DNA from: Malus domestica
Taxonomy: Eukaryota > Streptophyta > Magnoliopsida > Rosales > Rosaceae
Direction: 5' to 3'
Length of the DNA: 64,000 bases
NCBI RefSeq assembly: GCF_042453785.1
Contig: NC_091673.1
Location: 8,949,001 to 9,013,000 of the forward strand
The notes beneath the pieces are model-generated. The model worked only from the letters and a program-made list of their open reading frames with translations. It made no database searches and was not told the origin of the DNA. Both the position numbers and the translations under genes were made by a program. How positions within the stretch are numbered: the stretch's first letter is position 1; the number at the start of each line of letters is the position of its first letter. Below, piece by piece: positions 12,298 through 62,300 of the stretch.

Positions 12298-13713
12298 TTA
12301 AGTATCGTCAGCACCCCTCAATTCCCACTGGTGCTCTATCAAGTCAAGTTGGCGGGCATTGTGCATATATGACCTTTGAAGTGCAGTATATCGTTGGATG
12401 ATCCTTTCATTGTAACGTCCATCCCTTTCTAATGGCTCATGTTGCACGGGCTCATCGGTGGCGTCATGAGCACAATATATACGTGTTCTTGAATTGTTCA
12501 TCGTGTTTGGCTCATATTTATCAACGGCTTCATAATCGTACTCATCTTCCACAATCATGTTGTGAAGAATGATGCACGTCATCATGATGGATCGAAGCGA
12601 CTCTACATCAAACAATCTGGCAGCACCCCTGATGATCGCCCAGCGAGCTTGGAGGATACCGAAACAACGTTCCACATCCTTCCTGCACCCTTCTTGACAT
12701 CTTGCAAAGTGTTTTTCCTTTGCACTGCGCGGACGTGGCATTGTTTTGACAAATGTTGACCACCTTGGGTAAATGCCATCAGCTAGGTAGTATGGCCCGT
12801 CGTACATACGTCCATTGACCTCATACGTGACTTTTGGTGCCTTTCCTTGCAGGACATCGTTGAACACTGAGGATTGGGCAAGGACGTTGAGGTCATTTTG
12901 AGCTCCCGGAACCCCGAAAAAGGCGTGCCAAATCCATGTATCAAAAGATGCCACCGCCTCTAAAATGATACTTTTTGATCCTTTTCTATCCCCATAAGCA
13001 CCTTGCCATGCACTTGGACAGTTTTTCCAAGTCCAGTGCATACAATCAATGCTTCCAATCATCCCTGGAAAACCTCGCATCTCGCCTTTCTTCAGAAGCC
13101 TTTGTAAGTCCATATGAGTAGGTTTCCGGAGGTACTCTGCGGTGTAGATAGATTCGATTGCCGAACAAAACCTCATCAAGGACTCAAGAATGGTTGATTT
13201 TCCCATCCTCGTTATCTCGTCCACTTGGTCTGCAGCTGCTCCATATGCAAGCATCCGCAAGGCAGCAGTAATTTTTTGTTGAGGCAGGAGACCCATAGCA
13301 CCAAAAGCATCCGGCTTTTGCACAAAGTAAGAATCATGGTTGCAAACAGCGCCCATGATTTTGTTGAACAAATGTCGTTCCATTCTAAAACGACGTCGGA
13401 AGTATGTATCAGGGAATGCACTGTTACGGACAAAATAATCGTCCAAGAGCTCCTGACCTTGTCGTTGCCTGTTTCTATCAATGTTTACAGCACGGTTGGG
13501 CCTGCAGATATGAGCCACAGTTTGGACGACTCGACGGGATTGTGAGGCTCCTGCCATTCTTGATTCGTCATCTCTTCGTCTACGCTCGTCATCCTTTTCC
13601 ATCTCATTTTGGGCCCAATCCCCAACATTGAACATTCCTTCTGATTGGTTAAACAATTCTTCCTCTTCTTGCTCGATTTCCCACATCATCTTTGAAGACG
13701 AAGAAGAAGACAT
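12298..13713 (-). CDS. PIF/Harbinger DDE transposase (HARBI1/Plant_tran type)
   Basis: Single-exon gene of 471 residues. I start at the Met of M-S-S-S-S-S-S-K because the 34 codons upstream are encoded by a tandem repeat. Catalytic candidates are D223 in G-S-I-D-C-M-H-W, D274 in G-A-Q-N-D-L-N or D312 in L-A-D-G-I-Y-P, and E348 in K-D-V-E-R-C-F-G-I-L-Q-A-R-W. These blocks are the signature of the plant harbinger transposase family (Pfam Plant_tran). A helix-turn-helix-like region with T-A-A-L-R-M-L-A-Y precedes the catalytic core. The enzyme would excise and reinsert the element at TWA sites together with ORF1. No frameshift or stop was seen, which is unusual for a plant copy. Confidence 0.93.
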   Translation of the reverse strand: MSSSSSSKMMWEIEQEEEELFNQSEGMFNVGDWAQNEMEKDDERRRRDDESRMAGASQSRRVVQTVAHICRPNRAVNIDRNRQRQGQELLDDYFVRNSAFPDTYFRRRFRMERHLFNKIMGAVCNHDSYFVQKPDAFGAMGLLPQQKITAALRMLAYGAAADQVDEITRMGKSTILESLMRFCSAIESIYTAEYLRKPTHMDLQRLLKKGEMRGFPGMIGSIDCMHWTWKNCPSAWQGAYGDRKGSKSIILEAVASFDTWIWHAFFGVPGAQNDLNVLAQSSVFNDVLQGKAPKVTYEVNGRMYDGPYYLADGIYPRWSTFVKTMPRPRSAKEKHFARCQEGCRKDVERCFGILQARWAIIRGAARLFDVESLRSIMMTCIILHNMIVEDEYDYEAVDKYEPNTMNNSRTRIYCAHDATDEPVQHEPLERDGRYNERIIQRYTALQRSYMHNARQLDLIEHQWELRGADDT

Positions 13714-13724
13714 TGTAAGAAGGA

Positions 13725-13892
13725 AACAGAAACTATGAATAATGATATGGATTTTGGTGAAGAAGGAAGCAAAAACTATTAATAATGATAGGGATTTTGG
13801 TGAAGAAGGAACCATAAACTATGAATAATGATAGGGATTTTGGCGAAGAAGGAAGTAGAAACTATGAATAATGATAGAGATCTTGAGAAAAT
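13725..13892. repeat. 43-bp tandem repeat at the 5' end of the transposase gene
   Basis: Four rounds of a unit containing aataatgatagggattttgg and gaagaaggaa stand just upstream of the transposase start on its 5' side. They extend the open frame artificially by 34 codons. Confidence 0.85.
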
Positions 13893-29971: not shown

Positions 29972-31689
29972 CGAGCTCTTAAATTGTCACAAAGCTTCCT
30001 CCCATTGCTCTAAGAGACTGAACAGGTGCCCATTGAGCCGATCATCTTAAGCTTGACTCAATTAATTTAGAATTTGATATTGGATATTGGATTAAACTTG
30101 ACCAATTTCAGGGACCAGTTGTGATAAAAACCATAGAAATGAATTACATTTATATATGTGAAACTCACTTGTATAAAATAATATGATTCAAATGATAATA
30201 CTCACTCAAATAAGTCTGCTATTTATCAACTCGATTCAAAAGTAAGATACATGTTTGGTAGTAGGGATTTGATTTTTGAGGCAAACAGCTTCCCGCTAGT
30301 AAATATGATTCAAATAATAATACTCACTCAAAACATAGTAATGCATTATTTGACTGAGTGACATGCTAATGAAAAGGGCAAAGCTTCCCGCTGCTTTTGA
30401 CCTTCCCTACACAAGTTTGATTTCTGTACTTTATGATGCTTGATCTCTCCTCTGTCACTCAACTGGTATACTAGTGCCACTGAAAAACTAAACCACTTAC
30501 TCTCGCTAGCAACACTGCATAGGGATTCCAAGTGACTCCAAAACAGGTCTTGGAGTCAAGTATGTGAAGGATTAGTTATGCCATGCCTATTCGTTTCAGA
30601 TATTGGAGTCAAGTATTTGGAAAACAACAAAACAAATTGTTTTAGATTACATTATTCGGTAACTTCTTTTCTTATTAAAGAAAATCGAGCATTGTTCCGA
30701 GATTTTTGTCCAATTGGAGATTTAGTCGTGAACTAATAATCTGTAAGTATTGATTTCTAAATTTGTCACAATATGGAGCAATATGGTCATTTTGTGTAGC
30801 ATCATTAGAACTTGCATCTAAAATAAAAGATATAAAAAGACAAAATCATTACTCACAAACTTTTTGTTCAAGGAAACCGAACTTCCAAGCAATGCAATTA
30901 GCGACTTTAATTAAAGGGCAATTGATTAAAATAATGAAAACTAAAACTTGTTTGCTAAAATTATCAGATTTAAAAAAATCATCAATCTATAAGGGAGATA
31001 TGATGGGTCTATGAAAGTTAATATGATAGGTTAATTTAAAAGGGTGTCTAATCAGTTTAACAATGGTTTTTTATTTTTTATTTTATCATTTTAGACAATT
31101 GCCCTTAATTAAATGGGGATGCATTACAACCAAGGAAGAAAATATCGGTAATATCGGAAATATCGGTAGTCCGAAAACACGGAAATATCGATGGAAATAT
31201 CGGGATAATATCGATATCGATAAAAATTACATGGAAACCACGGAAATTGTAAGAAAAACTTGGAAATTTTTAATGAAACTTTGTAGGATGTTTATTTAGT
31301 CAATTATCTATTAGTTTATCACAAAAAATTGGAAGGAAATGCATTGCATGATGGATTTAACTGATTTAAGTTGATTATATAGCGAGCTGGCAAACATTAT
31401 GAGTGTAGAAAATATGTAGTAATTAATGAAAGAAGTTTAAACACACCATAATCATTTATATATAATTAATTAGTACAATATTTGGAGGTTTTATTTAGGA
31501 TATTAAAAAAAAAAAGGGAAGTGAATAAAATGATGAAGAATAATGTGCCGAATTTGACACTTTAAATTTCTTACACATAAGAATAAGACTAAACTTTAAT
31601 TTGGATGCCGATTATGTTTTTTCAAGTTTATATAAAGTAAAAGAATTGAATTTTGGAAGCCAGGAGTGTGTCAATTGAATTTTGGCCGG

Positions 31690-32300
31690 CGTGCAAGGTA
31701 TCAATCTCTTCGTCTCGTCGAGTAGTACAACTTTCCTTTTTGTTTCACTCAATTTCGTTGAGTATTGAAAAAGTTATACTCATTTGAATCTTACCCAGTT
31801 TCAGGCGACCTCAGTGGCTTTCGAGGAAATTTCCGGCCAAACAACAACGAGTCAGACATCGTGTGAGATACCATTCTCTTCGTCTCTTCGAGGGCTACAA
31901 CTTTCCTTTTTGTTTCACTCAATTTCGTTGCGTATTGAAAAAGTTATACTCATTTGAATCTTACCCAATTTCCAGCGACCTCAGTGGCTTTCGAGGCAAT
32001 TTCCGGCCAAACCACGGCGAGTTGGCCGACGTGCAAGGTATCAATCTCTTCGTCTCGTCGAGTAGTACAACTTTCCTTTTTGTTTCACTCAATTTCGTTG
32101 AGTATTAAAAAAGTTATACTCATTTGAATCTTACCCAGTTTCCGGCGATCTCAGTGACTTTCGAGGAATTTTCCGGCCAAACCACGACGATTCAAACGTT
32201 GTGTGAGGTACCATTCTCTTCCTCTCTTCGAGGGCTACAACTTTAGTTTTTGTCTTGCTTGATTTCGTTGAGTTTTGACAAAGTTATGGCCGTTTAAAGT
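31690..32300. repeat. Tandem 170-bp monomers in alternating A-B-A-B order
   Basis: The landmark ctcttcgtctc recurs at 31706, 31876, 32046 and 32216, exactly 170 bases apart. Monomers 1 and 3 share gcaaggtatcaatctc and cgtcgagtagtacaac. Monomers 2 and 4 share gag.taccattctc and ttcgagggctacaac. The higher-order unit is therefore a 340-bp dimer. All share the phrase tttttgtttcactcaatttc and a ttccggccaaac end. Confidence 0.9.
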
Positions 32301-32346
32301 GGGTGTAAATTTTCGGCCGAAATTCTGATTTTCTCCTATTGGGAGA

Positions 32347-32397
32347 GTCCCACATCGCCCATGCTTGCTCACTGCCCTCGCAATTTGTCCTATAAAA
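32347..32397 (+). promoter_or_regulatory. snRNA-type promoter: USE plus TATA at Pol II spacing
   Basis: GTCCCACATCG (32347-32357) is a perfect match to the plant snRNA upstream sequence element RTCCCACATCG. TATAAA begins at 32391, leaving 33 bases between. In plants that wide spacing is typical of Pol II snRNA genes (U1, U2, U4, U5); Pol III U6 genes have about one helical turn less. Confidence 0.8.
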
Positions 32398-32422
32398 CCC
32401 ACATTCCCCTGCTCGGTAAGCC

Positions 32423-32515
32423 ATATCTTGTTCACCCTTTGGGCTATGATCAAGTGAAGTATATGTTGAGTTTTCTCAACATATTTAAGTATTTTTTAGT
32501 ATTATGTGGCGATAT
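32423..32515 (+). ncRNA. U2-snRNA-like sequence, probably a pseudogene
   Basis: Starting 32 bases after the TATA, ATATCTTG then ttcacccTTTGGGCTATGATCAAGTGAAGTAT follows the U2 snRNA 5' half. The block GGCTATGATCAAGTGAAGTA differs from the U2 form at few positions. The branch-point-pairing GTAGTA of U2 reads GAAGTA here, and similarity fades after about 32470, where a new hairpin (gttgag.tttt.ctcaac) appears. Splicing function is therefore unlikely. Comparison is with the conserved plant U2 sequence from memory. Confidence 0.68.
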
Positions 32516-32856
32516 TATGATGAAAATCATTTGGATAGTTAAAAAAATATCGGATCTCTAAAAAAACGATAATATCGGCAATATTTCACCGATATTATCG
32601 ATTTTTTCTTCCATGATTACAACTAACTGAGTATTACACAAGCAGCAGGAGGAGAAAATATTGCCCTAAAAGTTTGAAATCAACAAAACCAATATATAGG
32701 CTTTATTGATTATCTATGAAGCTTCACATATGCAACATCTGTTTAGGTTTATTGGGCTGTAGGAATTAGGAATCACAATTATTATTTAGTAAGCAACATA
32801 TAGGCACTGCATAGATATATTATGTAGGGATTCTGTATTCATTTCCCCATCTTCAC

Positions 32857-59381: not shown

Positions 59382-62300
59382 TTACCTGGAGTCTATCCCA
59401 ACAGCCTTAATGCAGAATTCCAACTTTGATTTTGTGACTACCTTTGTCAACATGTCTGAAGAATTATTATCGAAATGAATCTTCTTCAGCTGTAGCAACT
59501 TATTCTCAATAGCATCTCTAAGCCAATGATAACGAATATCAATGTGCTTAGTGCGTGAATGATATGTAGTATTCTTGCTCAAATCCAGAGCACTCTGACT
59601 ATCACAATAAACACCATAATCACTCTGCTTCAAACCCAACTCTTGGAGAAACCTTTTTAGCCACAATAACTCCTTATATGCTTCTGTAACGACTATGTAT
59701 TCAACTTCGGTTGTAGACAAAGCAACACACTTTTGCAACTTGGATTTCCAAGACATGGCTCCCCCTGCAAAAGTAAACAAGTACCCAGATGTAGATTTTC
59801 TACTATCCAGGTCACCTCCCAAGTCAGCATCTGTAAATCCTTCCAAGATTGGTTTGGAACTGCCAAAGCACAAGCACATCTTAGAAGTCCCCTTCAAATA
59901 TCTGAGAACCCACTTAACAGCTTCCCAATGGTCTTTTCCTGGATTAGAGAGAAACCTGCTCACCACGCCTACTGCATGAACAATATCTGGCCGTGTGCAC
60001 ACCATTGCATACATGATACTTCCTATCGTTGAAGAGTATGGAACAACTGCCATTTTCTCCTTTTTTTCATATGTTTTTTGACACGACTCTTTGCTCAACT
60101 TGATATGATTGGCTAAAGGTGAGCTTACCGGTTTGGCTGTTTTCATGTTAAACCTTTCAAGCACCCATTCAACATACTTTTCTTGTGACAGCCACAACTT
60201 CTTGGATTTTCTGTCACGAATTATCTCCATGCCCAAAATTTGCTTGGCTGGCCCTAAGTCCTTCATGTCAAAGGACTAAGATAACTATTTTTTGAGCTTT
60301 TTAATCATAGAAGCATCTTGACCGACAATCAACATGTCATCAACATGAAGCAATAAAATGATGAATTTACCTCCAAAAAATTGTTTGATATAGACACAAG
60401 AGTTAACATGAGTTCTCTTGTACCCATTACTCACCATGAATGAGTTGAACTTCTTATTCCATTGTCTCGGAGCCTGCTTAAGACCATATAAGCTTTTCTT
60501 GAGCTTGCACACCAAATTTTCTTTACCTTTGACTTCAAAGCCTTCGGGTTACTCCATGTATATCTCCTCTTCTAAATTACCGTGGAGAAATGCAGTTTTA
60601 ACGTCTAACTGCTCGAGCTCAAGATCCATGCTTGCTGCCATACCAAGTATAACTCGAATGTAAGTCATCTTCACCACCAGTGAGAAAATCTCATCAAAGT
60701 CAACTCATTTCTTTTGACCAAAACCTTTGACAACCAAACGAGCCTTGTACCTTGTCATGTTGTCGTCTCTTTTCAATTTGAACACCCACTTGTTTTTCAA
60801 TGCTTTTCTGCCATTTGGAAGCTCCACCAGCTCATAGGTATCATTCTTTGATAAGGAATCCATCTCCGACTCCATTGCCTTCATCCATTTGTCACTGCCG
60901 TTATGAGCTCTGGCTTCCTCATAAGTTTCGGGCTCTCTATAATTAGTCAACATGATATACTCTGATGAAGAATACTTGGTAGACGATCTTCGACTTCTGC
61001 TGGATCTTCTGACTTGATCTTCATTCTTTTGTAGGACTGGACGCTCCATCTGATCAGCAATCTCATGGTCTGGCACATCTTGATCAGGCTTCATCTGATT
61101 AACATTATCTGGTTCTGCAAGCACTTCATTGGCAGCTGTTTTAGGGATGTCATCATGACTTTCTTCATCTGAAGCTAATGGATCAACTCCTCTGACTGCT
61201 CCATCTGGTTATGCCTATTTATTCGAATCCCCAATTGTTTGATCTTCATAAAAGACCACGTCTCTACTTCGGATAAACTTCTTTTGGTATAGGTCCCATA
61301 ATCTGTAACCAAAATCTTCACCGCCATAACCAAGAAAGATGCATGGGGTAGCTTTGTAGTCTAAGTTCGATCTCTGCTCTTTGGGCACATGCACAAAAGC
61401 TTTGCAGCCACACACCTTCAGATGAGAGTAAGACACATCATTACCAGTCCATACTTTCTCCGGAACATCAAGACCTAATGGTACTGATGGAGATCGGTTG
61501 ATCAAATAACAGGCTGTCCTTACAGCTTCACCCCATAACTGTTTAGATAATTTTGCAGTCTTCAGCATACACCTGACTTTCTCCATGATGGTTCAGTTCA
61601 TTCTTTCAGCAACACCATTATGTTATGGAGTTCCAGGAACCGTCTTCTCATGACATATGCCATGTTTCACACAATATTCTCTAAACTGGTGAGATGTGTA
61701 CTCGCCGTCGTTGTTGCTACGAAGGCACTTGACAGGTTTCCTAATTTCCCTCTTGACCATGACATGTAACTCCTAGAATGTTTGAAACACTTGGTCTTTG
61801 GATTTCAACAAATACACCCAAACCTTTCATGAAGCATCATCAATATAAGTAACAAAATATTTATTTCTTCCAAATGACTCGACTTCCATGGGACCACACA
61901 CATCTGAATAAACAAGATCTAACAAAATTCCTTTCTTTGTAGATGGAACAGAAAAACTAACTCTTCTTTGTTTTCCGAATAAACAATGCTCACAAGAGTT
62001 TAACGACGTACCTTTGGCAAAGGGAATGTGAGACTTCTTTGCCAAAACTTGTAGGCCTTTCTCGCTCATGTGGCCTAACCTCTTATGCCACAAGTCTAGA
62101 GATGAGTCATCCACAACATTCAACTCACCTTTCAAAACCTTGGCATTTGACCGGTACAACGTACAAAAAAGTTGTGTTCTTGCTACCACCATTAAGCCTT
62201 TAGTAAACTTCAATTTTCCTTCGCCAATATGGTGATAATAACCTTGTCGATCAAGGGTACCGATGGATATCAGATTGAGACGTATATCAAGAATATGTCT

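Follow-up and report, generated by a model that had tools for sequence, protein, structure and literature searches.

A Pack-hAT-like transposon family of Malus domestica that carries captured U2 and U4 snRNA promoters

The element found at 31131–32615 of the window (the whole 64,000-nt stretch of Malus domestica DNA that was analysed) is, with fair confidence, a member of a Pack-hAT-like, non-autonomous hAT family that has captured the promoters of U2 and U4 snRNA genes and spread them in the genome. The elements of this family are mobile, they contain host DNA and they have multiplied the captured promoters. These promoters are predicted to initiate transcription and may benefit the element that carries them.

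The window element is bordered on both sides by the 8-bp target-site duplication (TSD) ATTACAAC (31123–31130 and 32616–32623), at which other family copies have different 8-bp sequences. Its matching terminal inverted repeats (TIRs) are located at 31131–31157 on the + strand, with subterminal ATATCGG repeats, and at 32589–32615 on the − strand, and the arms 31128–31157 and 32589–32618, each including 3 flanking bases, show 87% complementarity. The 5′ terminal region (31131–31511, +) is common to the D and E elements described below. In the interior, a unit of 170 bp is tandemly repeated 3.5 times (31696–32287, +), and an apparent two-unit (340-bp) rhythm is seen by eye in this array. All parts of the promoter lie on the + strand: the snRNA upstream sequence element (USE) GTCCCACATCG at 32347–32357, a linker of 33 nt (32358–32390) and the TATA box TATAAAA at 32391–32397 (TATAAA core at 32391–32396). 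The U2-derived sequence begins at 32423 (32423–32467, +), which is the expected start site. Thus, the TSD, the TIRs, the USE–33–TATAAA arrangement and the U2-like start were all located where the initial annotation had placed them. Farther downstream are the element's own 3′ module (32468–32518, +) and the position 32518–32519, where, according to the alignment of the copies, approximately 70 nt found in most of the 30 copies are missing. The exact USE sequence occurs only once in the window, as do its first ten bases, for which about 0.005 matches are expected on one strand from the base composition. The 11-mer, having A or G as first base, is also present in the host U2 genes L043 and L044, while the host U4 gene L085 has its last ten bases. 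In PMC545797, the USE is printed as RTCCACATCG, that is, with one C fewer than in the element. Elsewhere in the window, a long ORF at 12298–13818 (−) has the Plant_tran/DDE_Tnp_4 domains of a PIF-Harbinger-type transposase, and an ORF at 59382–60275 (−) is similar to the terminal part of a copia polymerase; its RVT_2 score of 28.7 bits falls just short of the Pfam cut-off, 31.6.

The 651-Mb Malus domestica assembly (19 contigs, the window being on C13) was searched with the element, which gave 4463 first-look candidates; 40 of these were scored and 30 copies were cut out. Each of the contigs C1–C17 carried matches. The TSDs, for which a script chose the best placement close to each end, were exact over 8 bp in 23 of the 30 copies, 22 of them being distinct, and matched at 7 of 8 positions in three others, while four copies had no clear TSD. 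Such 8-bp TSDs, short TIRs and multiple copies with the same ends are those of hAT elements, which bears out the proposed hAT-type mobility as well as the expectation that a genome search would find many copies with the same TIRs, different TSDs and a conserved USE/TATA pair. Neither the ends nor the USE/TATA pair are confined to the window: beside the 30 copies, a query with the promoter cassette gave 180 candidates, and all 40 that were scored matched (41 matches), a count that, like that of the CCC-linker class below, is a lower bound or a mixture of classes and not a census of the family. Alignment of the tails divided the 30 copies into three subfamilies: A with 12 copies, that of the window among them, B with 10 and C with 8. 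All three have the USE, 33 nt and TATAAA in common despite their differing linkers.

Two further subfamilies came from an Rfam U2 search of the genome (30346 candidates, 46 scored matches, 32 above the cut-off), which found host U2 loci, for example, L043 and L044, together with element copies. Subfamily D (L063, L065–L068, and L072) has a U2 part nearer to host U2 than that of the window element, and its 5′ region is 92–95% identical to that of the window element over 353–379 bp in five of the six loci; the TSDs are CTCCTACT in L063 (by eye) and ACATACAC in L066. Subfamily E (L058–L061 and L070) consists of elements of about 2.3 kb, one copy being 3.8 kb long. Four of its five members have TSDs (GTATTAAG, GTTCTAAG, CTTACACC, and GTTATGGT), and the right end of L076 is not intact. 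Compared with the window element, all five E copies are 89–94% identical over 342–381 bp at the 5′ end, and 73–76% identical over 106–116 bp at the 3′ end. The 5′ terminal 340–380 bp of D and E (89–95%) are thus far closer to the window element than is the 3′ end of E, as if 5′ ends had recently been exchanged among subfamilies. MITEs are short elements of under about 800 bp without coding capacity, and the members of this family, ranging from about 1.5 kb (A–C) to 2.3 kb and, in one E copy, to 3.8 kb, exceed that size.

The window copy scored 24.9 bits with the U2 model RF00004 and did not match at the gathering score of 46 (E 0.014 in a search of 4227 families over 1501 bp, which by division corresponds to about 3e-6 for that family alone). 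It is colinear with the host U2 gene L043 over nt 1–45 only (36 of 45 identical), which reduces the 93 nt at 32423–32515, originally taken for the 5′ half of U2, to the 45 nt at 32423–32467. The sister copy L081 retains GTAGTA and, with 46.6 bits, reaches the gathering score. The U2 part also ends at nt 45 in L081, in the A copy L022 and in the B copy L028, whereas it extends to nt 61 in the D copy L063 and to nt 94 in E; in the C copy L036 the alignment with U2 is confined to nt 14–40. Capture is seen in the E copy L058, in which a block of 476 bp matches the host U2 locus L044 with 75.9% identity over 497 columns (E 3e-96). The block begins about 385 bp before the U2 start, takes in the USE and TATA (the TATA position of L044 reads GATAAAA) and continues through U2 to nt 94, where it stops at ACACGATATTA, a sequence also found in the element's own tail. 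A tree placed E among the host U2 loci and left D and A–C unsettled. Members of the family have captured host U2 5′ flank, the USE–TATA promoter and the 5′ end of U2, as the initial annotation had proposed for a U2 gene with its promoter. Other host DNA between hAT ends, typical of Pack-hATs, is the U4 locus described below and, in the D copy L063 (1048–1386), a DUF632 gene fragment (PF04782, E 4.4e-10) located upstream of a duplicated promoter. A 1.1-kb family copy with the TSD GTTAAGAG lies upstream of a host U2 locus (138.5 bits) in L047 (280–1386; C13:11503565), and about 48 bp separate its end from the USE-like site AACCCACATCG there.

A scan of the genome with the pattern TCCCACATCG-N20-45-TATAAA, with the reversed pattern as control, identified 433 sites versus 5; among the 100 sites listed, which are on C1–C5, the gap was 33 in 53, 32 in 32 and other in 15. 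One of the listed sites, L083, has a 3′ end of this family's type, which is attached immediately past the start site of another promoter, and the host gene with this type of promoter, L085, proved to be U4 (RF00015, 103 bits). The element locus L093 is identical to L085 at 213 of 228 positions, and 168 bp of the match lie upstream of the USE. Two U4-type copies followed in full have the promoter but lack the U4 RNA, the element 3′ end being fused instead. The right flank of L083, GGGAAGAC, joined to the family 5′ TIR has one match in the genome, approximately 1.55 kb upstream of its USE; since this pairing of TSD and TIR is unique, L083 represents a full-length element of this type, about 1.8 kb in size. 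A host U4 promoter with its flank was captured separately from the U2 capture, and it is mainly these promoter copies devoid of RNA that support the earlier suggestion that the promoter is the part which the elements kept. When the genome was searched with a U4-type query, 12 of the 40 scored candidates spanned promoter and tail (the query itself includes the U4 promoter, so this share is not a census), and five of these 12 have a second promoter unit. The tandem unit is directly visible in L086. Tandem promoters of U2 type were detected in L063 and as pairs 59–78 bp apart in the pattern scans, which also gave, on C10, five promoter matches of any family within 623 bp. Among the C1–C5 sites are those of L079, a frequent repeat of LTR-like appearance with USE–32–TATAAA and a linker ending in CTCAAC, which belongs to this genome as well and differs from the element in having no hAT ends in 501 bases (its LTR nature was judged by eye). 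Another repeat-like site, L080, has USE–33–TATAAA and an extra partial USE copy, and no hAT ends in 551 bases.

The spacing of USE and TATA sets the polymerase, and 33 nt is the Pol II type. About this distance separates the two boxes in the element family, as in a Pol II snRNA unit: of the 30 A–C copies, 27 have a gap of 33, 29 have TATAAA, and 25 have an exact USE (A 7/12, B 10/10, C 8/8), while ATCCCACATCG in all six D and GTCCCACATCG in all five E copies are likewise followed by a gap of 33. Among nine host U2 loci, some of which may be pseudogenes, an exact USE was confined to L043 and L044 and the gap of 33 to L051, the spacing ranging from 31 to 33 in the loci with a TATA; thus, the element promoters lie nearer the consensus than those of the majority of host loci compared. 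The 33-nt linkers of A, B and C diverge: the segment 32363–32381 in the A linker is an exact 19-bp inversion of that of C (18/19 relative to B). Comparison of the A, B and C consensuses made from all 30 copies showed 0 changes in the 17 promoter columns versus 35 in the 103 others (P 0.003, or P 0.012 without the linker). These P values assume independent columns and count the inversion as many changes; they are taken as suggestive of selection on the promoter. The loci L081, L082 and L084 were left out of this main test, because they had been found through an exact promoter match and a version including them is biased. Among the A–E consensuses, the 17 promoter columns had no change versus 93 changes in the 103 others, an identity that may derive in part from constraint in the host genes before capture. 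The earlier consensuses, including those of A–E, were built from 7/12 A, 5/10 B and 5/8 C copies, the A copies being those with intact USE, and the A–B–C test on this subset gave the same result as all 30 copies. The USE is mutated in five and the gap shortened in two of the 12 A copies, which indicates that single copies decay. The CCC-linker class, named for the first bases of its linker, brings together relatives of A–C, copies of the U4 type and at least one host U4 gene, and it numbers 204 exact sites in the genome versus 0 for the reversed pattern; among the 100 listed, the gap is 33 in 80, 32 in 19 and 30 in one.

Relatives without the promoter also exist. In the search with the U4-type query, 28 of the 40 scored places matched the 3′ end alone, three of them being E copies with a U2 promoter. 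In six of the remaining 3′-end relatives no USE was found within two mismatches in about 370 bp upstream (two have a match with three mismatches), and by eye their cargo is gene-like (L087, L089, and L091) or tRNA-like (L088, L090, and L092). The boxes resembling A and B that had suggested tRNAs in the latter three were seen by eye only, ARAGORN found no tRNA in the six loci given to it, and Rfam gave no match at E 0.05 in the seven loci L087–L093. As all six relatives sampled lack the USE, the family can spread without the promoter, and their cargo implies that the family captures other DNA, too. This is what is expected if the promoters are pure passengers of a promiscuous Pack-hAT that takes up any nearby DNA, snRNA promoters being merely easy to recognize and looking conserved since the captures are young or come from constrained host genes. 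We consider this explanation nearly an even call: the foreign cargo of the 3′-end relatives, the DUF632 fragment of L063, the decay of the USE in single copies and the insertion in L047, which hints at transposition near such genes, are all in its favour, while it does not account easily for a promoter that stayed fixed when the linker was changed and inverted among A–C, for the capture of two different snRNA classes, or for tandem promoter units in both U2-type and U4-type copies.

The sequence downstream of the U2 part offered another possible function, namely that the U2-like RNA is itself the cargo and works as a short RNA of the Sm class, binding splicing proteins or partners of U2. U2 nt 1–45 include the branch-site recognition region, L081 retains GTAGTA with its 46.6 bits, and in the window copy a stable hairpin is predicted by folding 3′ of the U2 part, together with an AU-rich Sm-like stretch, ATTTTTTAG. 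However, the tail following nt 45 aligns to a module also present in L088 and L090, which are copies without U2; the scores against the L090 module, 20 for the window (32460–32530), 30 for L081 and 23 for L063, each exceed those of all 500 shuffles. Hence the Sm-like stretch and most of the hairpin come from the 3′ module rather than from U2. The plant snRNA 3′ box reads CAN3-10AGTNNAA (PMC545797 and PMC5079582). A match to it occurs in the window copy (32528–32543, +), in L081 and, strictly, in 14 of the 30 A–C copies, but in none of the six D, five E and two U4-type copies, and its chance of occurring in a 35-nt zone is 3.8%, so the match in the window is probably fortuitous. For these reasons we abandoned the reading favoured at first, a complete snRNA equipped with stem II, an Sm site and a 3′ box. 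The branch-recognition sequence is moreover altered in A and B, and two U4-type copies have the promoter without any RNA; therefore, we regard a functional RNA cargo as improbable. Chance resemblance of an ordinary hAT element to USE–TATA and U2, compatible with the sub-threshold Rfam score of the window copy alone, can be practically dismissed in view of the unmistakable U2 with host flank in sister copies, the 433 sites versus 5 in the reversed-pattern control, and the host-flank matches of L058 to L044 (U2) and of L093 to L085 (U4).

In the reading that we favour, a Pack-hAT-like family capturing and spreading snRNA promoters, pieces of U2 and U4 loci were joined to the element 3′ end and copied to new sites. 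The joining presumably took place through repair or template switching where the two partners have a short sequence in common, as is clearly seen at the E junction. The promoter would face the element 3′ end, which in the window copy lies at a distance of about 190 bp, and direct transcription toward the 3′ TIR. Pol II is predicted to initiate at 32423, on the model of plant snRNA genes, for whose transcription USE and TATA are essential (PMC5079582). The predicted short transcript would comprise U2 nt 1–45 and the element tail and might read out into flanking DNA, which the unreliable 3′ box makes plausible. The promoter could be of use to the element, for instance if it held the element end in open chromatin, and a benefit of this kind would explain the fixed USE and TATA beside a rewritten or inverted linker as well as the tandem promoters in U2-type and U4-type copies. 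The strongest form of this proposal, that the family recruits U2 and U4 Pol II promoters beside its 3′ terminus since initiation there aids mobilization, and so spreads working and sometimes tandem promoters, is put forward tentatively, as a possibility somewhat short of probable.

Pack-TYPE elements, including Pack-hATs, are non-autonomous TIR elements carrying captured host coding DNA or genes (PMC8903248), and the present family resembles them in being non-autonomous TIR elements with captured host DNA; neither snRNA nor promoter appears as a word in the main text of that report, whereas here an snRNA promoter was repeatedly captured. With plant Pol II snRNA genes, as described in PMC545797 and PMC5079582, the family shares the USE, the TATA and the start position, and its flanking sequence corresponds to that of host U2 and U4 loci, but its RNA is truncated (U2) or absent (U4 type), there is no reliable 3′ box, and it is mobile and present in many copies. 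The trans-species MIRNA loci of Cuscuta also have a U-snRNA-type USE promoter, with Pol III features (PMC10226582, a commentary), and are similar in that an snRNA-type promoter serves another transcript, which in the element family is a predicted one; unlike the elements, they are miRNA loci, and no transposon is mentioned there. The open-licence literature yielded no hAT element with an snRNA promoter and no DNA transposon with promoters of two snRNA classes. Gene capture by hAT elements is thus known, while the mobilization of snRNA promoters of two classes is apparently new. Searches outside the plant gave no relatives: pattern scans of viral contigs identified 4, 0 and 7 loci, of which L001–L004 had no Rfam match at gathering and the seven of the third scan were taken as chance; one scan of genome contigs was empty and another gave a bacterial MAG locus, L012, unrelated by eye; 128 plasmid records (127 of Staphylococcus and one of Aliivibrio) had a weak match of about 51 bp with E 0.01–0.03 among the matches listed, and phages had no match to the element.

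Copies with a promoter, with promoter and RNA, and without a promoter coexist in this genome, which constitutes a natural experiment on whether captured promoters aid the spread of the elements that carry them. If the promoters are live, transposition would have supplied the apple genome with additional snRNA-type start sites, from scores of them up to a few hundred; these could drive nearby host sequences and compete for snRNA transcription factors, and the annotation of snRNA genes could be confused by element copies. The captured promoters, often intact, may let the elements switch on transcription at their landing sites.
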